Below, in pieces: positions 13,768 to 24,837 of a stretch of DNA of 64,000 nucleotides; the stretch's first letter is position 1; every line of letters begins with the position of its first letter. The position numbers and the translations under genes were made by a program. Source of the DNA: Lacimicrobium sp. SS2-24. GTDB lineage: Bacteria > Pseudomonadota > Gammaproteobacteria > Enterobacterales > Alteromonadaceae. Location: positions 124,001 to 188,000 of the forward strand of contig NZ_NIWW01000005.1 in the NCBI RefSeq assembly GCF_002201535.1, written 5' to 3'. Below the pieces are notes generated by a model. The model did not search any database. It was given only the letters and a program-made list of their open reading frames with translations, and was not told the origin of the DNA.

Positions 13768-15381
13768 TCAGAATAATTCGGTCAGTAACTTGCCCGTGGC
13801 CTTGTTGGGCTGAGTGATCTCCAGCAGGGCTGAGAGCGTCAGTGCCAGGTCCTCGGGGGAAACTTCCCGATAGATCCTGGCCGTTGGAATATTCCAGCCG
13901 GCGAAATGAAGAGGTACATGAGTATCATAACGATAGGGTGAGCCATGGGTTGCAGCCGCATAATCGCCTGACATCGACGAGGTTTGCTGCACAATCACCA
14001 CATCCCCGCTACGCTCGGGGACATAGGCGTTTTGCACCTTGCTGGCGATGGCATCAAAAGATAAATCTTCAGTTAGCAATGTTTGGCGGGTAAAGGTACG
14101 CGCAATACCCGGCAGTGTGTTGATAAGCTCTGCCAGCTTTTTCTGGGCCTGTTGTGCGGCGATACCCTGTTCTTGCAAAACGGCATTGTCGAGATACACA
14201 GAAGGCAATTGCACAGCTTTGATGAGCGCGTCACGGGTTTTAAAATGCTCACTCAGCTGGGCATTGAGCGCGCTTATCTGTGCTTTTAAACTGCCACGAA
14301 AGGCCCTGAAGCCCAGGGACCGTTTATATTCGGGAATAGCATCGACACCATGGTCAGCGGACAGCGCAATCAACACGTTTTGCATGCCGATGTGCTTGTC
14401 GATAAAGGCAAAAAGATCGGCCAGCGTGCGGTCCAGGCGAATCAGATTGTCCTCAGTTTCAAGGCTGTTGGGACCAAACATATGGCCGATATAATCGTTA
14501 ACGGAAAAGCTGATGGCCAGGTAATCGGTGGTAGCGTCTTCACCCAGCCCGTGTTCCTTAATCAGCATCTTGGCAAACGCCGCGGTAAGCTGATCGCCAA
14601 AGGGCGTATAGGTAAGCAGGCTGTAATAGCGCTTATCGGGTTGTGCCGGAAGTGTGTGTGGAAACCCCCGGTTGAAGCCTTTTGGCGGAATCTGAAAATT
14701 GCGGTTTGCGGCACTGTTGCGATAGGTTGTTTGCGGCTGACTAAGGTTCCAGTGTTGGTTGAGGAATTGGTCCTTATAGCCGGATTGGTTAAATTTGCGC
14801 GCGTATTCGGGTAAGGCATCAAAATAAAAACTGCTGCTGATCATATTACCGCTGCTTTTATCGTACCAGAAGGACTTTCCATGCTGTCCGCCGGTCAGCA
14901 CGGCACCCCGGTCTTTGATCGACACAGAAAAGATTTTTGCCTTACCATCGCTGGCCAGATACAGCTCATCGGAAAAGGTAGACGCCATCAGGTTAGCCGG
15001 TGATGCGCTGTATCCCTGGGCGTCCAACAAATGAGTGGATTCATCGGCGACGCAATAGACCCGCTCACCACTTTGTCTGTCAGCCCAGTTGTTCGCGGCA
15101 ACACCATGCTCAGAGGGCAGCGCCCCGGTGGCCAGAGTGGCATGCCCTACAGCCGTCAGGGTGGTATTGTGACGATAATGGGCATTGAGATAAGCCGTGC
15201 CTTGTTGCAAAAACAGATTGAAGCCCTGCTGTTCTTCGGTAATAAAATGCGGCTGATAGCGGCTGAGCATATCGCCGCGCAGCTGATCAACGGTGATCTG
15301 TAGTACCAGTTTTGGCTTCGCCTGTAGCGGGGTTGATATCAACAGGCTCAGGATAACCATCACACAAGCTTTCATCTTCAT
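13768..15381 (-). CDS. Secreted PafA-type alkaline phosphatase
   Basis: A 537-residue member of the alkaline phosphatase superfamily with a signal peptide at 1-21. The nucleophile is Thr82 (VGHATLATG). Zinc ligands are visible in VDQLRGD (Asp32), FSVNDYIGHMFG, SADHGVD and AATHGSPY. PafA-type enzymes are phosphate-insensitive phosphomonoesterases. Within a nucleoside-salvage cluster it could free nucleosides from extracytoplasmic nucleotides (inference). I chose the ATG at 15381 over a TTG at 15390 because AGGAG lies 9 bases before it. It follows the 2OG oxygenase gene by 12 bases and converges on the DyP gene. Confidence 0.88.
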   Translation of the reverse strand: MKMKACVMVILSLLISTPLQAKPKLVLQITVDQLRGDMLSRYQPHFITEEQQGFNLFLQQGTAYLNAHYRHNTTLTAVGHATLATGALPSEHGVAANNWADRQSGERVYCVADESTHLLDAQGYSASPANLMASTFSDELYLASDGKAKIFSVSIKDRGAVLTGGQHGKSFWYDKSSGNMISSSFYFDALPEYARKFNQSGYKDQFLNQHWNLSQPQTTYRNSAANRNFQIPPKGFNRGFPHTLPAQPDKRYYSLLTYTPFGDQLTAAFAKMLIKEHGLGEDATTDYLAISFSVNDYIGHMFGPNSLETEDNLIRLDRTLADLFAFIDKHIGMQNVLIALSADHGVDAIPEYKRSLGFRAFRGSLKAQISALNAQLSEHFKTRDALIKAVQLPSVYLDNAVLQEQGIAAQQAQKKLAELINTLPGIARTFTRQTLLTEDLSFDAIASKVQNAYVPERSGDVVIVQQTSSMSGDYAAATHGSPYRYDTHVPLHFAGWNIPTARIYREVSPEDLALTLSALLEITQPNKATGKLLTELF

Positions 15382-15393
15382 TACCGGCAACTC

Positions 15394-16233
15394 CTACTTT
15401 ACGCCCAGTTCACGCAAGCGTTCTTTCAGGTAGCTGTCTGCCGTATGCCGCTCGGAAAGCACAACCTCAGGGCGGGGATGCAAAAACAGGGGCAGCGAGA
15501 TGCGCGATTTGCTTTGATCCGCGCCTTGCGGATTGATTACCCGGTGTGTAGTCGATGGGAAGTATCCCGCAGACGCCTCTTGCAACATATCACCGATATT
15601 GACAATAAGGTTGCCAAAATCACAGGGGACATCCAGCCATTCACCGGTTTTACTTTTGACCTGCAGACCAGGTTCATTTGCAGCGGGCAAAATGGTGAGC
15701 AGGTTAATGTCTTCATGCGCCGCCGCTCTAATCGCACCGGGCTCTTCTGTGCCGGTCAGCGGTGGATAATGCAGCACCCGAAGCAGCGTTTGCTGACTGT
15801 TTTTTACCATATTCGACAACGGTTCGCGGTAGTGGCGGGCCACATCTTCAGGAGAATGAGCCTCGACCCAGCTGAGCAGCTCGGCGGCAAAGTCAGTGGT
15901 TTGTTGGTAATAGTCGGCCAGATGGGCCTTCAGGCTTTGAGGACAGCGACCCCAGGGGTAGTAATGAAAATACTCTTTGATGTCTTTGGTTTTATGACCT
16001 TTGGCAACCTCAGACACGGACGGCGGGAAATAGCCATCCTGGGTTTCTTTGTCATACAGATACTGGTGCTTTTCTTCACTATCAAAAAACGCCTTACCGG
16101 CAGCATAGATGGCATCTACTTTTTGCTGACGGATGGGGTGATTCTTGAGAACACCAAAGCCGGTCTGATGCAAGGACTCCACAAAGGCCTCAGCAGCATT
16201 GTCGGCGTGGTAATCAATGGCGATGAGTTTCAT
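15394..16233 (-). CDS. 2-oxoglutarate/Fe(II) oxygenase, isopenicillin N synthase-like
   Basis: A 279-residue complete double-stranded beta-helix dioxygenase. The Fe(II) triad is His173 and Asp175 (AAHEDINLLT) plus His230 (STTHRV). Arg244 in SRISLPLF should bind the 2-oxoglutarate carboxylate. The N-terminal DIOX_N-like part has TGFGVLKNH. The family hydroxylates or desaturates small molecules. The gene lies between a nucleoside transporter (17 bases upstream) and a phosphatase (12 bases downstream), so a pyrimidine or nucleoside substrate is a reasonable guess, but nothing in the sequence proves it. Confidence 0.88.
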   Translation of the reverse strand: MKLIAIDYHADNAAEAFVESLHQTGFGVLKNHPIRQQKVDAIYAAGKAFFDSEEKHQYLYDKETQDGYFPPSVSEVAKGHKTKDIKEYFHYYPWGRCPQSLKAHLADYYQQTTDFAAELLSWVEAHSPEDVARHYREPLSNMVKNSQQTLLRVLHYPPLTGTEEPGAIRAAAHEDINLLTILPAANEPGLQVKSKTGEWLDVPCDFGNLIVNIGDMLQEASAGYFPSTTHRVINPQGADQSKSRISLPLFLHPRPEVVLSERHTADSYLKERLRELGVK

Positions 16234-16250: not shown

Positions 16251-17459
16251 TTACAAAAAGATAAAAAAGCCGGCAATCGCGGCGCTCATAAGGTTAGCCA
16301 GAGAGGCTGCCGCAACGGCGCGCAGTCCCAAAGCGGCAATATCATGACGACGACTCGGCGCCATGCTCCCCAGGCCCCCGAGCAAAATAGCGATGGAGCT
16401 GAGATTGGCGAAGCCGCACAGGGCAAAGGTAACGATGGCCTGCGTGCCTTCACTGAGCTGGTCTTTGTAGTTGACGAAATCCAGATACGCGACAAACTCG
16501 TTGACCACCACTTTCTGACCGATAAAGCTGCCTGCTCTGAGGGCTTCATCCCAGGGAACACCGATAATGAAGGCCAGGGGCTGGAAAACATAACCCAGAA
16601 TAATCTGTAACGTCAGTTCGCCGGCGCCAAACCAGCCACCCACCCAGCCAATCAGGCCATTCAACAAGGCAATCAGGCCTACAAAGGCAAGTAGCATGGC
16701 ACCAACGTTGAGGGCCAGCATTAAGCCACTGGCAGCGCCGGTGGCGGCGGCATCAATCACATTGACGGGCTTCTCTTCAGGTTCAGACAACTCAGCAACA
16801 TCATTCTTCGGCGTTTCTGTTTCCGGGATCATCAGTTTTGCCATCATCAGGCCCCCCGGTGCGGCCATAAAACTGGCCGCAATCAGGTATTTCAGCTCCA
16901 CACCCAGCCCGGCATAACCGGCCAGCACCGAACCTGCTACAGATGCGAGGCCGCCAACCATCACTGCAAAGAGCTCGGAACGGGTCATGGTGGGGATAAA
17001 AGGCCGGACCACCAGGGGGGCTTCAGTTTGCCCCACGAAGATGTTGGCGGTAGCTGACATGGACTCGGGGCGACTGGTTTTCAGCAACCAGCGAATCGCG
17101 CCGCCAATAAGACGAATAACCCACCCCATGACGCCTAAATAATACAGCACCGCAATAAAGGAAGAGAAAAACACAATAATGGGCAACACATGCACAGCAA
17201 ACATGAAGCCAAACTTCATTTCTCCCATGTCGCCGAACAAGAAGCTGATCCCGGCTTTGGCATAGCCGATAATTTGTGACACGGTCTGTGCCATCGATAG
17301 CAACATTTCCTTGCCGAAGGGGATATAGAGCACCAAGGCACCCAAGGACAATTGCAGGGCAAAGGCACCCAATACCGTTCGCCAGTTTATGGCCTTACGA
17401 TTCACCGAGAGCAGCCACCCCAGTGCAAAAAGTGTCAGTATGCCGAGCAGACTAATCAT
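16251..17459 (-). CDS. Concentrative nucleoside transporter (CNT/NupC family)
   Basis: A 402-residue inner-membrane Na+- or H+-coupled nucleoside importer. The family hallmark [11 protein letters not shown] lies near 143, with NupC-type N-terminal, core and C-terminal regions and a late segment [13 protein letters not shown]. The protein has about 8-10 membrane spans and is essentially full length. The uridine kinase gene ends 35 bases upstream, so transport and phosphorylation are physically linked. Bacterial CNTs differ in purine and pyrimidine preference, which cannot be read directly here. Confidence 0.93.
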
Positions 17460-17494: not shown

Positions 17495-18118
17495 TTATCC
17501 CAGTGCTTGCTGAATATGGGATTTGAGCACATCCAGAGCAATACGGTTTTTACCCCCTTGCGTAACCACCACATCGGCGGTGAAACGACTGGGCGCCACA
17601 AACTGGTGGTACATGGGCTTGACCGTCGATTCGTATTGTTCGGTGACCGACTGTAGTGTCCGTCCACGCTCCTGAACGTCCCGGGTAATGCGCCTGAGCA
17701 GGCAAATGTCCAGCGGCGTATCAATAAAGACTTTGATGTCGAAAAGTGGCAACAGCTGGGGGCTGGCCAGCAGCATGATCCCTTCCACGATGATCACTGA
17801 AGCCGGTTCCAGTGTCTGTGTTTCCGGCAGTCGGGTGTGGGTTTTGAAGGAATACTGAGGGTATTCGATGCTTTTTCCACTTTTGAGATCCAGCAGGTGT
17901 TCGATCAGCAGTTCGTGTTCAAAGGCATTGGGGTGGTCATAATTGGTTTTCAGCCGTTCTTCCATGGTCATGTGAGACTGATCGCGATAGTAGTGATCTT
18001 CGCACAGCACCAGAATGTTCATGCCTGAATCCAGAATTTCAGTAATCAGGGTCTGAGTGAAAAGGGATTTTCCTGAGCCTGAACCCCCTGAAATTGCGAT
18101 AATACTGGTGTTTGACAT
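17495..18118 (-). CDS. udk: Uridine kinase
   Basis: A 207-residue enzyme (E. coli Udk has 213) that phosphorylates uridine and cytidine with ATP or GTP in the cytoplasm. The P-loop GGSGSGKS is at 11-18, followed by CEDHYYRDQSHM, NYDHPNAFEHELL and TPLDICLLRRITRD, all typical of Udk. The frame extends upstream to 18169, but the ATG at 18118 gives the family N-terminus (MSNTSIIAISGG). It heads a minus-strand set with a CNT transporter, a 2OG oxygenase and a PafA-like phosphatase. Confidence 0.93.
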   Translation of the reverse strand: MSNTSIIAISGGSGSGKSLFTQTLITEILDSGMNILVLCEDHYYRDQSHMTMEERLKTNYDHPNAFEHELLIEHLLDLKSGKSIEYPQYSFKTHTRLPETQTLEPASVIIVEGIMLLASPQLLPLFDIKVFIDTPLDICLLRRITRDVQERGRTLQSVTEQYESTVKPMYHQFVAPSRFTADVVVTQGGKNRIALDVLKSHIQQALG

Positions 18119-18277
18119 GGTCACGTGACTGGCTGTTATTGGTGGCCACAAGATTACCAGCCAAATCATGAAAAGTCAGTGACAGAGGGCGTTTTAAGAG
18201 GAATTAGTCTTACGTAAATCTCCCCTTTATAAACTCAATGCCCAGGCACCCGGAAGATGCACGCTGGCTGAGCCAGA

Positions 18278-19240
18278 TTACTTACCTATAAACTCCAGAT
18301 CTTCGGGTTGTAATTGCTCCAATGCATAGTTGTGCAATTTTGAGCGGGAGCCTTCACCCTGCGCTTTGGGTGGATAGAAGGGGATTTTTTGCTCTGGTGC
18401 CTCGGCAAAGACTTCATCCAGCGCGGCGCGGATTTCGCTGAGCATTTTATCAAGGTTTGAACTGAAATCCGGACGCTTACGGATAGTGTGTCCTAACTCA
18501 ATCATACGGTAAAAATAGCGATTGGCTAATTCGAGCAGGGCTTCGGGTATGTTTTTATTGTGATTCAAGGCCGGTGCCTCGGTGTTTAGACAATAATCAA
18601 CCAGGGCAATATAAAAACAAAAGGGTTTATTGGACAACTGCACTTGTTTGCCACTGAGGTTGTGGCGGAATGTACGGTTATGCAGATCGATAACCAGCTT
18701 AGGTGCCTCATGAACCCCTTCTTCTGGCCTGCTTTGCTCTTGTCTGGCACGGGCTTTGGCTGTTTGATACTGATATAACGCCAGCGTCATTATGAGTGCG
18801 GCCATCAGCGCCAGTGGCGAAAAACTCTGGCTTAAGCGGTATGGCTGAGCCATCAGCGTCAGACGGAAGGTCTGAGCCGGCGCATTGAGTTGTTTCTCAA
18901 CAAAATAGCCAAAAGCCTTATCTGCTTCAGCGTCTATCCCCTGTAACGCGGTCACTGTGATGGGAAGCTGCTGTGCTTGCGCCTGTTCGTTCAGACGCTG
19001 CAGGTAAGCCCGGATAGCGGCTTTATCGGCGACGGACTTCATGGCTTCATTGGGCAACTGCAGCCAGGGCAAATCCAGGGCAATACGTTGTTCCACGGCC
19101 AGGATGCTTTGCTGAATATGGCGTTGGTGCACGATGTTAGCGGATAAATAACCAATGATCTGGAACACCAGGAACAAACCCAACAGGGTGATGAACCAGG
19201 CGATCTTTTTATACACAGGTAGCTGGAGCTTATTCAACAT
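18278..19240 (-). CDS. Two-TM protein with periplasmic loop and possible winged-helix cytoplasmic domain
   Basis: A 320-residue protein of unknown function. TM1 is about 12-34 and TM2 about 141-158, with a roughly 105-residue segment between them that should be periplasmic. The C-terminal 160 residues should be cytoplasmic. This part opens with LVIDLHNRTFRHNLSGKQVQLSNKP, a pattern reminiscent of the first strands of OmpR-type winged helices, then runs helical to the end (judged by eye). Its start overlaps the 3' end of the PhnD-like gene by 11 bases, so the two are translationally coupled and likely work together. A membrane-bound regulator is one reading; a structural partner is another. Confidence 0.8.
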   Translation of the reverse strand: MLNKLQLPVYKKIAWFITLLGLFLVFQIIGYLSANIVHQRHIQQSILAVEQRIALDLPWLQLPNEAMKSVADKAAIRAYLQRLNEQAQAQQLPITVTALQGIDAEADKAFGYFVEKQLNAPAQTFRLTLMAQPYRLSQSFSPLALMAALIMTLALYQYQTAKARARQEQSRPEEGVHEAPKLVIDLHNRTFRHNLSGKQVQLSNKPFCFYIALVDYCLNTEAPALNHNKNIPEALLELANRYFYRMIELGHTIRKRPDFSSNLDKMLSEIRAALDEVFAEAPEQKIPFYPPKAQGEGSRSKLHNYALEQLQPEDLEFIGK

Positions 19241-20078
19241 GGCAGTTCGGTTCGGTTGTCAGACGGCTGAAATAACTGGAATTCTGATTTCTGGCGATAT
19301 CAGTCAGGGTTTGCTGAACCGCGCAGAATAAATCGATATTGTTGCTGTCCATTTTCAGGTACCACTTGCTGCCGCTCACTTCCTGTTCAATGGGCGTAAT
19401 ATAGTTCTTTGAGAGAATGGCCTCGTCACTCTCCTGCCAGAAAGAGGAAATAATATCTACCCGCCCGGAGGTAAGCAGCTGTCGCAACTCTGAATGCGAA
19501 TTGGCATAAGTAATGTGCATATTGTCCAGCGGCAGGGCCAGGGATTTAAACAGCTGAATCGGGATGATGTGCCCTGAACGACTGGTGGGATAGTCCAGCA
19601 GGCCAAGTCGCTTACCTAACAGGTACTCTTTGGTCAAGGCTGGCTTTTCGCGCATGGCGATAAGATAGGCCGAGTAATCAGGGTAAGCTGCGACCATTTT
19701 GTATCCGTAGGTAGACTTTCCTTCCACGGCCTCCAGCAGGTTTTCTTTTACCAGTGCCAGGTCAGCAATGCCTTTACCAACAAACTGTAATACTTGCGCC
19801 TCGCTGTGGCTCCAGAACGCTTTGACACTGCCAAATTGCTTGCCTACAACCGTATTCTGGCACAATGCCTGGGACAGGTTGCGGGCCACGGACTCTGTGG
19901 TGATAAAGAGTATCAGAGAGGCAGTATTCTCGGCATTCCCCGTACGACATTCGGTATTTTTCTGAATTAACGGCATAAAGCTCGGCATTTTGCTAGAATG
20001 CACATGTTGCACGACGATCCAGAGCAGGCTACCGAGGAATAGCGCCAGGAAAACCAGCGATGTTTTTGACAGGGTCAA
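19230..20078 (-). CDS. Membrane-anchored PhnD-like periplasmic binding protein
   Basis: A 282-residue protein with an N-terminal hydrophobic anchor (about 7-24) and a type-2 periplasmic-binding fold like phosphate/phosphonate-binding PhnD: KQFGSVKAFWSHSEAQVLQFVGKGIADLALVKE early, then LGLLDYPTSRSGHIIP and GRVDIISSFWQES. No ABC permease or ATPase is nearby. The frame is open to a TTG at 20153, but the TTG at 20078 has GGAG 7 bases upstream and puts the anchor at the N-terminus. Four cysteines remain in the mature part. It overlaps the following two-TM gene by 11 bases. A sensory role without transport is inferred. Confidence 0.78.
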   Translation of the reverse strand: MTLSKTSLVFLALFLGSLLWIVVQHVHSSKMPSFMPLIQKNTECRTGNAENTASLILFITTESVARNLSQALCQNTVVGKQFGSVKAFWSHSEAQVLQFVGKGIADLALVKENLLEAVEGKSTYGYKMVAAYPDYSAYLIAMREKPALTKEYLLGKRLGLLDYPTSRSGHIIPIQLFKSLALPLDNMHITYANSHSELRQLLTSGRVDIISSFWQESDEAILSKNYITPIEQEVSGSKWYLKMDSNNIDLFCAVQQTLTDIARNQNSSYFSRLTTEPNCHVE

Positions 20079-20408
20079 GTGACAGCTCCGCTTAAAAGGT
20101 CTAACCAGATGCGTAATGCACAGTATTGGAACAGCTAAGCTTACTTGTTGCAATAAGTAATCTTACTCATATTTTATAACCCATTGATTTTAAAGCTTTA
20201 TGAATAAGAAGTTATGAATCTTTATGAGGCCTTTCTATTTTCCTCTGAGAGGGGAGAATTTACCTCGCGAATCGAATGGGGTGCACACTTTCTGCACAGG
20301 TGAGCCAGAGTCCTAAAACGGGTGGTATGGGACTCGCAACGACATGAATTTGCAATAAATTGCAACTAAACTCTGTTTGCACATAACAACTGAAACTAGG
20401 AAAACACA
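20079..20408. promoter_or_regulatory. Divergent control region with two inverted repeats
   Basis: This 330-base gene-free stretch separates the PhnD-like gene from the TonB-dependent receptor. TTACTT and AAGTAA (20141-20146 and 20155-20160) flank GTTGCAAT. TTGCAAT-AA-ATTGCAA (20350-20365) is a perfect 7-bp palindrome. Both contain TTGCAATAA. The right arm of the second overlaps a weak -35 (TTGCAA) set 16 bases before CATAAC, so a repressor there could block the receptor promoter. TTATGAAT is also directly repeated at 20198 and 20212. Confidence 0.45.
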
Positions 20409-23400
20409 ATGTTTACGAAATCCAAGCTTAACCGCGTTGCCTTAGCGGTTGCCATGTCTGTGGGATTAACCACAGGCGCTATGGCCCAGGAAACCTCCTC
20501 CGGGATACGGGGTAATATCCTTACTCAATCGGGACAGGTTGTGTCCGGAGCAACGGTAACAGTGACAGATGCCAGAACGGGTGCTGTTCGTGTTATCACA
20601 TCAAATGATTCCGGTTCTTTCAGTCTCAGAGGCCTGCAGGTTGGCGGTCCTTACACCATTGAAGTGACCGATGAAGCAGGTACAACAAAAAGAGAAAATG
20701 TGTATCTGAAACTGGGTGAAACGACAAGCCTTAGCTTAGGCTTAGAGACTCAGGTCATGGAATCCATTGTCGTGACAGGTTCTGCCGTTAACTCTTTGTA
20801 TGGTTCAACAGGCCCGGCCGCGAACTTTGATTTGAAATCCATTGAGAGTGCGCCCGCTATTAACCGTGACCTCAAAGATCTGATCAAAATCGACCCACGC
20901 GTGTACATCGATGAAGGATTTAATGATTCGGTACAGTGCGCCGGGGCAAACTCTCGCTTTAACAGCCTTACCGTTGATGGTATTCGTACTAACGATAACT
21001 TTGGGCTCAACTCTAATGGCTACCCCACGGTACGTATTCCTTTCTCATACGACTCTATCGCACAGGTTGCTGTAGAACTGGCTCCTTTTGACGTTCAGTA
21101 TGGTGGTTTTACAGCCTGTAATATCAATGCTGTTACCAAATCAGGAAGTAATGAGTTAAAGGGCGGGGTATTTTTTGATTATACCAATGACTCTATGCGC
21201 GGTGACTCTCTGGAAGGTGAAGACATTAATGTTGGCGCTTTCAATGAACGTCGCTACGGTTTCAATGTAGGCGGTGCGTTAATTGAAGACAAGCTCTTCT
21301 TCTTCACTTCCTATGAAAAGCTTGAAGGCTCTGATTTGTTTGACCGTGGCCCTGCGGGTTCTAACGCTGCGGTACCTGTTCTGGGTTTCTCTCAGGCACA
21401 GTACGATGAAATCCTGGACATCGCTCGCAATATATATGGTTATGAGCCCGGTGAGTTGGTAAGCAGTCTGCCGGTTGAAGATGAAAAAATCATGGCGAAA
21501 TTGGACTGGCAGATCAATGACGCTCATCGTGCATCATTGGTGTATAACTACAATGACGGCAATACTATTCGCGAGTCAGATGGTGACTCTGACGAATTTG
21601 AATACTCAAATCATTACTATGATCAAAGTGGTGAATTTGAGTCTGTCGTAGCCTCTTTGTATTCAGACTGGACGGATTCTTTCTCTACCGAATTGCGTAT
21701 TGGTACCTCTGATTTTGAAGCCAGTGTTGTCCCTCTGGGCGGGACTGATTTCGGTGAAGTGCAAATCACAACAGAGAACAATGGTTCTGAAGCTACCGTA
21801 TACCTCGGTGCAGATGATTCACGTCACGCAAACAAGCTGACCTACTCTAATGATACGTTTAAACTGGCCGGTACCTACCTGATAGGTGATCACGTTATCA
21901 CCGGCGGGTACGAGTACGAAAACCTGGATGTGTTCAACCTCTTTGTACAGGAAGCCGAAGGTGAGTACCGCTTTGGCTCTATCGAAGACTTCCGCAATGG
22001 TACCCCGTTCCGTATTACTTACGAGAGTGCTGCGGGTACCAATGACCCGGCGGATGGTGCGGCTGAGTTCTCTTATCAGATACACACGGCCTATATTCAG
22101 GATGAATTCTATCATATTGATTGGGATGCGACCTTTACCTTTGGTATCCGCTACGACTGGTATTCAAGTGATGATTATCCGGTAGAAAACCCGCTTATCG
22201 AAGAGTTGTATGGCTTCTCAAACGTCCAGAATCTGGATGGTAAAGATCTCATTCAGCCACGCTTCGGGTTTAACTGGATGGCGTCTAATGATCTGGAAGT
22301 ACGAGGTGGATTCGGACTCTATTCCGGTGGTAACCCCAATGTCTGGGTGGGTAATAATTACCAGAACAACGGTATTATCCTGAAGGAAAATCAGGATCGC
22401 AGTGGTACGTCTGTTTTTGATATGGACTTTACCGGCGAAGGGCGTCCTATCTATGATATTCCTCAGGATCTGTATGATGCAGTAGCCGCAGGAGAAGGTC
22501 GTAATGGTGGTATTAATATTCTGGATCCGAACTTCGAGATTCCATCTGAATGGAAATACGCTTTGGGTCTGACCTACACCTTTGACAACGACTATGTCCT
22601 GATGGCCGACTTGCTTTACACTGACAAGAAAGATGCGGCCATCATCAGGGATGTAACGCGCGTACGCACCGGAGAACTGGCACCCGATGGTCGTCCCATC
22701 TACACCAGTGTAAATGGTCGCCGTGAGGACTTCATGCTGACCAATGTGAAGGGAGATTCTGGCGAATCAACCAGCATCTCATTGTCATTGAGCAAGACCT
22801 ATGACTTTGGTCTGGACTGGAGCCTGGCGTATGCGTTCACCGAAGCAAAAGACGTCAGCCCGATGACCAGCTCTGTAGCCTTCTCTAACTACATCAGCCC
22901 GGCAGTAACGGATCCTGAAGATCCAGGTGCAGCCACGTCAAACTATGAGATTCCTCATCGTTTCACATTACGCGCCTCTTATGAGAAAGAGTTCATTGAT
23001 GGGTATGCGACGCGGGTAACTGTGTTCGGCACGGCCAATGAAGGTCGCCCGTATAGCTACGTCTTTAATGGAGATTTGGACGGCTCGTTGGGAAGCTCTA
23101 TTGGCTTTATTGATATGCACCTTGCCTATATCCCGGAAGAGGGTGACAGCAGAGTGGTGTATGCTGATAGCTTCGATAAGGCTGCATTTGATGCCTTTAT
23201 CGCTGAGGAAGGTCTGTCCCGTGGCGAAATCATGGGACGTAATAGCATCAATAGTGACTGGTGGACTAAGTTCGACGTAAAAGTGGAACAGGAATTCCCA
23301 GGCTTCTATGAAGAGCATAAAGCGAAAGCCTACCTCGTGATTGAGAACTTCGGTAACTTACTCAATGATGATTGGGGTGTTATGTACGAAGCCAGCTTCC

Positions 23401-23543
23401 CTCGCGCACAGCAGATCATTGGCGGTACCATCAATGATAACAATCAGTATGTGTATGAGACATTTTATGAGCCTGCGCGTCAGACACGCGTCGCGGATGC
23501 GTCTCTGTGGGAAGTTCGTTTGGGTGTGAAATACACCTTCTAA
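20409..23543 (+). CDS. Oar-like TonB-dependent receptor with carboxypeptidase-regulatory N-terminus
   Basis: A 1044-residue outer membrane protein. The signal peptide is 1-26 (cleavage after GAMA). Residues about 30-110 form a carboxypeptidase-regulatory-like beta-sandwich (GIRGNILTQSGQVVSGATV). A TonB-box-like ESIVVTGS at about 118 and a plug domain follow (NSLTVDGIRTNDNFG), then a long barrel ending VRLGVKYTF with C-terminal Phe. The layout matches the OmpA-related (Oar) group seen in Alteromonadales and Xanthomonadales, thought to import large or peptide substrates. The ATG has AGGA about 8 bases upstream. A terminator follows. The divergent membrane pair may control it. Confidence 0.92.
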   Translation: MFTKSKLNRVALAVAMSVGLTTGAMAQETSSGIRGNILTQSGQVVSGATVTVTDARTGAVRVITSNDSGSFSLRGLQVGGPYTIEVTDEAGTTKRENVYLKLGETTSLSLGLETQVMESIVVTGSAVNSLYGSTGPAANFDLKSIESAPAINRDLKDLIKIDPRVYIDEGFNDSVQCAGANSRFNSLTVDGIRTNDNFGLNSNGYPTVRIPFSYDSIAQVAVELAPFDVQYGGFTACNINAVTKSGSNELKGGVFFDYTNDSMRGDSLEGEDINVGAFNERRYGFNVGGALIEDKLFFFTSYEKLEGSDLFDRGPAGSNAAVPVLGFSQAQYDEILDIARNIYGYEPGELVSSLPVEDEKIMAKLDWQINDAHRASLVYNYNDGNTIRESDGDSDEFEYSNHYYDQSGEFESVVASLYSDWTDSFSTELRIGTSDFEASVVPLGGTDFGEVQITTENNGSEATVYLGADDSRHANKLTYSNDTFKLAGTYLIGDHVITGGYEYENLDVFNLFVQEAEGEYRFGSIEDFRNGTPFRITYESAAGTNDPADGAAEFSYQIHTAYIQDEFYHIDWDATFTFGIRYDWYSSDDYPVENPLIEELYGFSNVQNLDGKDLIQPRFGFNWMASNDLEVRGGFGLYSGGNPNVWVGNNYQNNGIILKENQDRSGTSVFDMDFTGEGRPIYDIPQDLYDAVAAGEGRNGGINILDPNFEIPSEWKYALGLTYTFDNDYVLMADLLYTDKKDAAIIRDVTRVRTGELAPDGRPIYTSVNGRREDFMLTNVKGDSGESTSISLSLSKTYDFGLDWSLAYAFTEAKDVSPMTSSVAFSNYISPAVTDPEDPGAATSNYEIPHRFTLRASYEKEFIDGYATRVTVFGTANEGRPYSYVFNGDLDGSLGSSIGFIDMHLAYIPEEGDSRVVYADSFDKAAFDAFIAEEGLSRGEIMGRNSINSDWWTKFDVKVEQEFPGFYEEHKAKAYLVIENFGNLLNDDWGVMYEASFPRAQQIIGGTINDNNQYVYETFYEPARQTRVADASLWEVRLGVKYTF

Positions 23544-23570: not shown

Positions 23571-23597
23571 AAAAGCCGGCCTCGCGCCGGCTTTTTT
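23571..23597 (+). terminator. Rho-independent terminator of the TonB-dependent receptor gene
   Basis: AAAGCCGGC and GCCGGCTTT pair around loop CTCGC and run into a T-run, 28 bases after the receptor stop. Confidence 0.9.
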
Positions 23598-23667
23598 GTT
23601 TATGATAACGACAGGTGTCGACGCATCAGGCGTTGGACTGCATCGAAAAAGGTTTAAAGAATACAGT

Positions 23668-24837
23668 ATGAAGAACATGATTCTGTTTTGGCTCACCTTA
23701 ATCAGCACAGGAGTGCAGGCAATGGAAATTCGGGTGGCGACTTTTAATGTCAGTATGGAGGCTGAAAACTACGTGCCTCGGGGCACAGAGGTGTCCGGCG
23801 AAGAGTTATTTGAGCATCTGGCAAGTGGCGAACATCAGCAAATTCGTAACATTGCAGAGATTATTCAGCGTGTGCGGCCCGATATTATCTTACTGAACGA
23901 ATTTGACTATGATGCCGACCCCAACAAGGGGATTCAGGCGTTTATTCGTCATTACCTGAGCCGCTCACAGTCAGGCGCAACACCTATCGATTATCCCTAC
24001 TTTTATATTGCGCCGGTGAATACCGGTGTCGATTCGGGCCATGACCTTAACAATGATGGTGTGGCCTCTGGAAAAGGCGCGGACGCCTTTGGTTTTGGAC
24101 TGTACCCGGGGCAATATGGCATGGCCTTATTAAGCCGTTTCCCCATCCTCGAAGATGACGTGCGCACCTTCCAGCGATTTTTGTGGAAAGATATGCCGGA
24201 TAACCTGATGACCACGGTGGTGGATGAGCAGGGTAAACCCTGGTACAGCGAGGCTGCGAAGCAGGTGTTGAGACTGTCTTCTAAGTCGCACTGGGATATT
24301 CCGGTGAATGTCGACGGCAACATCGTGCATGTGCTTGCCAGTCACCCTACACCGCCAGTTTTCGACGGCCCGGAGAACCGCAATGGTAAGCGCAATCATG
24401 ACGAGATTCGGTTCTGGGTGGATTATTTATCCTCGCCCTGGCAGTCGGCCTATATTTACGATGACAAGGGACAACAGGGAGGCCTTAAGGGCGACCGATT
24501 TGTGATTATTGGCGACCTCAATGCCTCACAGACCGAAGGCGATGCATACAAAGAGCCGATTGTTAACCTGCTGACCCACGCAAAAGTTCATGGCCACACT
24601 GTACCCAAAAGTGCGGGCGGCGCATTCCACAGTCAGGATAACCCCCTTGGCGCCATGCATACCGCCGCCTGGAGGATGCGTCCTGATTATGTGCTTCCCT
24701 CTGAAGCTGGCTGGAAGGTGCTTGGGGCGGGGGTGTTCTGGCCCAAACCCGATGAGCCCCTATATCGCTTGATTGAGAATCGCAATGCGTCTTCTGATCA
24801 CCGACTGGTCTGGATGGACCTGATGCTGGAGAATTAA
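23668..24837 (+). CDS. Secreted endonuclease/exonuclease/phosphatase family protein
   Basis: A 389-residue exported EEP-superfamily hydrolase. Residues 1-18 are a signal peptide (MKNMILFWLTLISTGVQA), which is why I choose the ATG at 23668 over the upstream open frame. Metal and catalytic motifs are visible: RVATFNVS near 23, LLNEFDYD, GDLNAS and the C-terminal SDHRLVWMDL. Members cleave phosphodiesters or phosphomonoesters; an extracellular nuclease or phytase-like role would fit phosphate scavenging. It sits just after the TonB receptor terminator with its own start region. Confidence 0.88.
   Translation: MKNMILFWLTLISTGVQAMEIRVATFNVSMEAENYVPRGTEVSGEELFEHLASGEHQQIRNIAEIIQRVRPDIILLNEFDYDADPNKGIQAFIRHYLSRSQSGATPIDYPYFYIAPVNTGVDSGHDLNNDGVASGKGADAFGFGLYPGQYGMALLSRFPILEDDVRTFQRFLWKDMPDNLMTTVVDEQGKPWYSEAAKQVLRLSSKSHWDIPVNVDGNIVHVLASHPTPPVFDGPENRNGKRNHDEIRFWVDYLSSPWQSAYIYDDKGQQGGLKGDRFVIIGDLNASQTEGDAYKEPIVNLLTHAKVHGHTVPKSAGGAFHSQDNPLGAMHTAAWRMRPDYVLPSEAGWKVLGAGVFWPKPDEPLYRLIENRNASSDHRLVWMDLMLEN

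Follow-up and report, generated by a model that had tools for sequence, protein, structure and literature searches.

Closest described systems and layout of the locus

Signalling by a binding protein of the PhnD class has been described for the PhnD-like AioX, which detects arsenite and acts with a histidine kinase (PMC5908839). In the systems of AioX, ArxX or ArrX with AioS, such a protein is the first component of the signal system, its Ser/Ser/His/Tyr pocket is conserved, and its gene lies beside the regulated locus (PMC5908839). The gene pair described here resembles these systems in its conserved pocket and, if its proposed role is right, in the other two features. In contrast to their histidine kinase and response regulator, the partner of its binding protein (PBP) is a two-TM protein (TM2) that is not a kinase and whose C-terminal domain is proposed to bind DNA; neither a histidine kinase nor a response regulator was found among the neighbours of the pair. 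ToxR/ToxS and CadC (PMC5430869, PMC7496328) are similar to the pair in having a membrane-anchored regulator with periplasmic input and a cytoplasmic OmpR-type winged helix, which is a candidate one here, and in that the partner gene is often in the same operon. However, the partner of TM2 is a binding protein and not a ToxS-like protein. PtxB, HtxB and PhnD (PMC5700983) share with PBP the fold and the residues that contact the ligand (S-x-S, His and Tyr), whereas PBP has no ABC partners, carries an N-terminal membrane anchor and is encoded in an operon with TM2.

No description of this composition of a binding protein and a two-TM protein was found in the open-access literature, in line with the initial annotation of this DNA, which knew of no such system. 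We lean towards the view that the pair represents an undescribed class of transmembrane signalling, in which a tethered PhnD-class binding protein is combined with a two-TM transcription factor bearing a C-terminal winged helix. This class would comprise two or more diverged subfamilies of marine Gammaproteobacteria and be dedicated to scavenging phosphoesters and nucleic acids outside the cell. Little is known of how marine bacteria recognize dissolved DNA, RNA and nucleotides as food and turn on the appropriate receptor and nuclease. In roughly one in five of the sampled Alteromonadaceae, the pair offers a defined two-protein sensor together with a probable operator and probable targets. If the reading is right, a binding protein combined with a C-terminal winged helix on a two-TM protein would be a new topology for kinase-free signal crossing.

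The locus lies in a 64,000-nucleotide stretch of Lacimicrobium sp. SS2-24 DNA, hereafter the window; the genome belongs to the Alteromonadaceae and is close to Lacimicrobium alkaliphilum. TM2 (18278-19240, minus strand) has 320 amino acids, an ATG start and two hydrophobic segments. PBP (19230-20078, minus strand), a membrane-anchored PhnD/PtxB-type binding protein and the proposed sensor, has 282 amino acids. The two ORFs share 11 bases and run divergently from the gene of an Oar-like TonB-dependent receptor of 1044 amino acids (20409-23543, plus strand), the proposed target, which contains OMP_b-brl_4 and carboxypeptidase-regulatory domains. Both the overlap and the divergent arrangement had been annotated initially and are confirmed. 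The PBP ORF has no ATG start. Its start is likely the TTG at 20078, because the longer TTG ORF (to 20153) would enter the proposed operator. Behind the receptor lies a secreted protein of the endonuclease/exonuclease/phosphatase family (23596-24837, plus strand; PF03372, E 4.5e-28). Downstream of TM2, all on the minus strand, lie the genes for uridine kinase (udk, 17495-18169), a NupC-type Na+/nucleoside transporter (16251-17459), a 2OG-Fe(II) oxygenase of the isopenicillin N synthase type (15394-16233), and an exported protein of the type I phosphodiesterase/nucleotide pyrophosphatase family (13768-15390).

Fold and ligand pocket of the binding protein

PBP has one N-terminal hydrophobic segment, at residues 8 to 26. 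Its match to PF12974 is borderline (27.2-27.5 bits with a cut-off of 27), and all of its relatives examined match the family at E<0.01 (44/44). In a Foldseek search against the PDB, the PBP model matched PtxB of Trichodesmium and Pseudomonas, HtxB and PhnD; the top match was PtxB, with a probability of 1.00 and a low TM-score (0.38). The membrane-anchored type-2 periplasmic-binding fold that had been recognized from the sequence was thus confirmed.

The oxyanion pocket is also preserved. Ligand residues of Te_PtxB are Y55, Y100, S130, T131, S132 and H160 (PMC5700983). Y135, S166, R167, S168 and H195 of PBP are invariant in 44 sequences, and among them S166, S168, H195 and Y135 align with S130, S132, H160 and Y100 of Te_PtxB. 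The pocket differs from that of PtxB in two ways. T131 of the S-T-S loop is replaced by an invariant Arg (R167), and Y55 is not conserved. The Ser/Ser/His/Tyr set recurs in PhnD and in AioX (PMC5908839); since AioX is a sensor, there is a precedent for sensing by the PhnD fold.

The two-TM protein and its C-terminal domain

The hydrophobic segments of TM2 span residues 13-31 and 136-154, and two segments are present in nearly all homologues, as had been claimed for the window protein. They leave a periplasmic loop (residues ~32-135) and a cytoplasmic C-terminal domain (residues ~178-320), which is OmpR-type winged-helix-like and the proposed DNA-binding output. Residues 178-320 are the best-conserved part of the protein and contain the motifs NKPxCFY, GHTxRKRPDF, LDKxLSEIRxALD and GEGSRSK. 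The window protein has no Pfam or NCBIfam domain, no match to Pfam DNA-binding families, PF00486 included, was listed at E<1 for 51 TM2 homologues, and an HMMER profile search of TM2 against the PDB gave no matches.

We compared the C-terminal domain with 40 OmpR-type winged helices from related genomes by profile-profile alignment (hhalign). The global score was 19.8, against 2.9 ± 2.0 (maximum 9.8) for 150 column-permuted profiles and 7.8 for the best neighbour-family control profile. The local score was 22.9, against 11.9 ± 2.2 (maximum 19.9) for permuted profiles. The alignment paired the N-terminal strands and the first helix, and brought LDKxLSEIRxALD onto the recognition helix. The hhalign probability was low in absolute terms (9-14%), and an earlier comparison with 14 sequences had given weak scores. 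In the AlphaFold model of TM2, built from 6 sequences (pTM 0.43), the C-terminal elements follow the order b-b-b-a-a-a, which is compatible with an OmpR-type winged helix. A Foldseek search of this full-length model against the PDB returned no winged helix, only weak unrelated matches (best E 0.14). The OmpR-type winged helix that the initial annotation had read from the first strands of this domain therefore stands in the profile comparison, far above permuted and unrelated controls, but did not emerge from Foldseek with the shallow model. Taken together, the data strongly suggest an OmpR-type winged helix in TM2, and we regard its presence as quite probable. The domain is not net basic, with 18 K/R and 19 D/E residues.

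ToxR-like proteins carry their winged helix at the N-terminus and have a single TM segment. The arrangement in TM2 departs from the ToxR/CadC layout of an N-terminal winged helix, one TM segment and a C-terminal periplasmic domain, since its candidate winged helix is C-terminal, behind two TM segments.

Distribution and genomic contexts

TM2 was present in 68 of 299 Alteromonadaceae genomes and in 16 of 52 genera. PBP was found at E<1e-60 in exactly those 68 genomes; no other genome had a match as strong. PBP lay directly upstream of TM2 in all 60 loci that were fetched with flanks, usually with an overlap, and an Oar-like TonB receptor diverged from the pair in 59 of them; the remaining locus is a contig end. 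The expectation that the two proteins are conserved together and near TonB receptors was therefore borne out. An order-wide sample confined TM2 to Alteromonadaceae, and a TM2 profile search of 369 class-level genomes revealed no members outside this family. Matches of TM2 in Serratia (L037-L039) proved to be a fimbrial usher, which has PEQKIPFYPP in common with TM2 by chance.

The neighbourhood analysis separated two contexts. In the first (44 loci), udk, nupC and the 2OG-Fe(II) oxygenase gene lie downstream, with the phosphodiesterase gene also present in 12 loci, and the receptor is divergent. The receptor is followed by a secreted PF03372 nuclease/phosphatase in 19 loci and by a DJ-1/PfpI protein in 12. 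In the second, which is found at other chromosomal positions (16 loci), PBP and the receptor are separated by an S1/P1 nuclease gene, and a UshA-type 5'-nucleotidase faces TM2 in 12 of the 16; in L089 and L090 an alkaline phosphatase gene and udk cluster with the receptor. The argR gene is near the pair in many loci. Both contexts bring together nuclease, nucleotidase and nucleoside genes, and therefore the locus serves nucleic-acid and nucleotide scavenging, with extracellular breakdown and nucleoside uptake as the common theme. The initial annotation's reading of the pair, the receptor and the palindrome is supported, but it overlooked this context, which hints at what is sensed.

The oxygenase gene is found directly behind udk-nupC in all 44 loci of the first context. 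This enzyme of the isopenicillin-N-synthase type may act on nucleosides or pyrimidines.

Membership of PF12974 is usual for ABC uptake, and PBP might accordingly be viewed as an orphan uptake protein that feeds some transporter, with TM2 as its membrane partner in transport. This is very improbable. No ABC-transporter gene recurs among the gene clusters common to the 60 loci, which bears out the earlier statement that ABC partners are absent. In addition, PBP is anchored in the membrane and strictly tied to TM2, and TM2 has only two TM segments and carries no ATPase or channel signature.

The proposed operator and the intergenic region

A near-palindrome of 20 bp at 20141-20160 of the window, TTACTTGTTGCAATAAGTAA, is conserved across the family, with the consensus TTACYTATTGCAATARGTAA, which was derived from k-mers common to the divergent regions. 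We propose that it is the operator. A best match of 16/20 or better was obtained in 59 of the 60 regions, compared with 4 of 1200 mononucleotide shuffles, and practically every pair locus has the element upstream of PBP. In the window's genome it is the sole site at three or fewer mismatches. The exact degenerate pattern occurred in 39 of 68 pair-bearing genomes and in 2 of 231 pair-less genomes of the family (Fisher 7e-28), and its matches fell, with few exceptions, at the pair locus. Because the pattern came from those loci, its count in pair-bearing genomes is partly circular, and the informative part, which is not circular, is the uniqueness of the site and its absence elsewhere. A looser pattern with 2 mismatches gave ~1-2 background sites per genome and was left out of the counts.

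Two inverted repeats sharing TTGCAATAA had been annotated in this region. Both exist, at 20141-20160 and 20350-20365, but only the former is conserved, far beyond chance. The latter is a degraded form restricted to this genus and lies outside the conserved signal.

On the side of PBP, a conserved TGAAAT/TCAAAT follows at a distance of 17 bases from the core TTGCAA, an arrangement that may be a promoter and would overlap the operator. A regulatory stretch on the receptor side (20163-20260) is kept toward the divergent gene in both contexts and includes additional conserved TTAC..TAA half-sites. Within it, between the operator and the receptor, a TTATGAAT block (20198-20219), also conserved in both contexts, could be the site of a second regulator, with ArgR-like half-sites, or belong to the receptor promoter. 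A possible, weak receptor promoter consists of TTTCTA (20232-20237) and AGAATT (20255-20260) with a 17-bp spacer. No consensus sigma-70 promoter was present, which fits activator-dependent promoters.

Proposed mechanism

We consider it probable that PBP and TM2 together signal across the membrane and thereby control nucleic-acid and nucleotide scavenging through the palindrome. PBP would be held at the periplasmic face by its uncleaved N-terminal helix, and its PhnD/PtxB-type pocket would bind a phosphorylated small molecule produced by nucleic-acid breakdown; judging from the gene neighbourhood, a nucleotide or another phosphomonoester is the most likely ligand. Opening and closing of PBP would be passed to the periplasmic loop of TM2 through a presumed contact between the two proteins. 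The cytoplasmic winged helix would then bind TTACYTATTGCAATARGTAA and the neighbouring half-sites, and in this way adjust the promoter of the pair itself and that of the divergent receptor or nuclease gene. Such a system would be a two-protein version of the one-component type. Activation is preferred over repression because no consensus promoter is present. The initial annotation had proposed that a signal from the binding protein is relayed via the two-TM protein to DNA upstream of the receptor. Co-conservation, the profile-profile match and the location of the palindrome between the pair and the receptor support this proposal, with DNA binding as a predicted step.

Alternatively, the palindrome could belong to another cytoplasmic regulator, such as a nucleoside or arginine repressor, while PBP and TM2 would serve in binding, docking or assembly at the inner membrane and make no contact with DNA. 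The lack of a DNA-binding fold in the Foldseek result for TM2, its charge balance, the nearby argR and the conserved TTATGAAT element are all consistent with this. We nevertheless regard it as unlikely. A regulator encoded elsewhere usually has several sites, whereas the genome has one; the exact pattern is almost absent from pair-less genomes; and the site accompanies the pair into a context that lacks argR, udk and nupC. The profile-profile evidence for a winged helix in TM2 also argues against it.

A second subfamily

Three remote PBP homologues, with 22-25% identity, are each followed by a two-TM protein of ~380 amino acids with a conserved C-terminal region, LDQNRNKxK...R..Y.L, and a further search revealed three more such pairs in other genera and families (L185, L186, L187, L191, L192 and L193 in all). 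In profile comparison, the output domain of the TM2-like proteins resembles a winged helix locally. When these proteins were compared directly with TM2 by profile, the result did not reach significance, and their relation is therefore drawn from PBP homology, architecture and gene order. The order is PBP, TM2-like protein and SurE, a secreted nucleotidase, in four loci, and PBP, TM2-like protein and another TonB receptor in two. L187 additionally carries PhoX and PF03372 genes. The operator of the first subfamily was not found upstream of these pairs. The second subfamily widens the scope of the architecture to phosphoester scavenging as a whole.

PHO-box-like sites were observed upstream of the binding-protein genes of L191 (GTGTCATAAAACTGTTAT, 16/18) and L186 (TTGCCATAAAAATGTCAC, 15/18), with scores reached in 0 of 500 shuffles, and weaker sites (13/18) were found in three more of the six operons. 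These motif matches suggest that the second-subfamily operons may be under phosphate-starvation control. They also bear on a different view of the ligand, in which the pair senses phosphate status, as free phosphate or phosphonate, and not nucleotides, and would act as a membrane-anchored equivalent of Pho control. The mechanism would largely coincide with the one proposed above and only the ligand would differ. The similarity of the PBP pocket to PtxB and PhnD and the phosphatases among the neighbours agree with such a role. However, the subfamily of the window showed no PHO box signal clearly above shuffles, its neighbours are specifically nucleoside and nucleic-acid genes, and the Thr of PtxB has given way to the invariant R167. 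We therefore assign this view a limited, though appreciable, probability, and favour a nucleotide or another phosphomonoester as the ligand of PBP.

Apparent exchange of the receptor gene

The identity of the receptor does not track that of the regulator. The Spearman coefficient was 0.25, compared with 0.66 for TM2-PBP and TM2-udk. The receptor of the window shares 83% identity with that of L043, from another genus, but 49-51% with those of L040 and L041, from its own genus, while its flanking genes follow the vertical, expected relationship. Between L040 and L056, the receptors share 85% identity and the TM2 proteins 40%. From this mismatch between receptor and flanks, the receptor gene appears to have been exchanged in place between lineages under a stable regulator.
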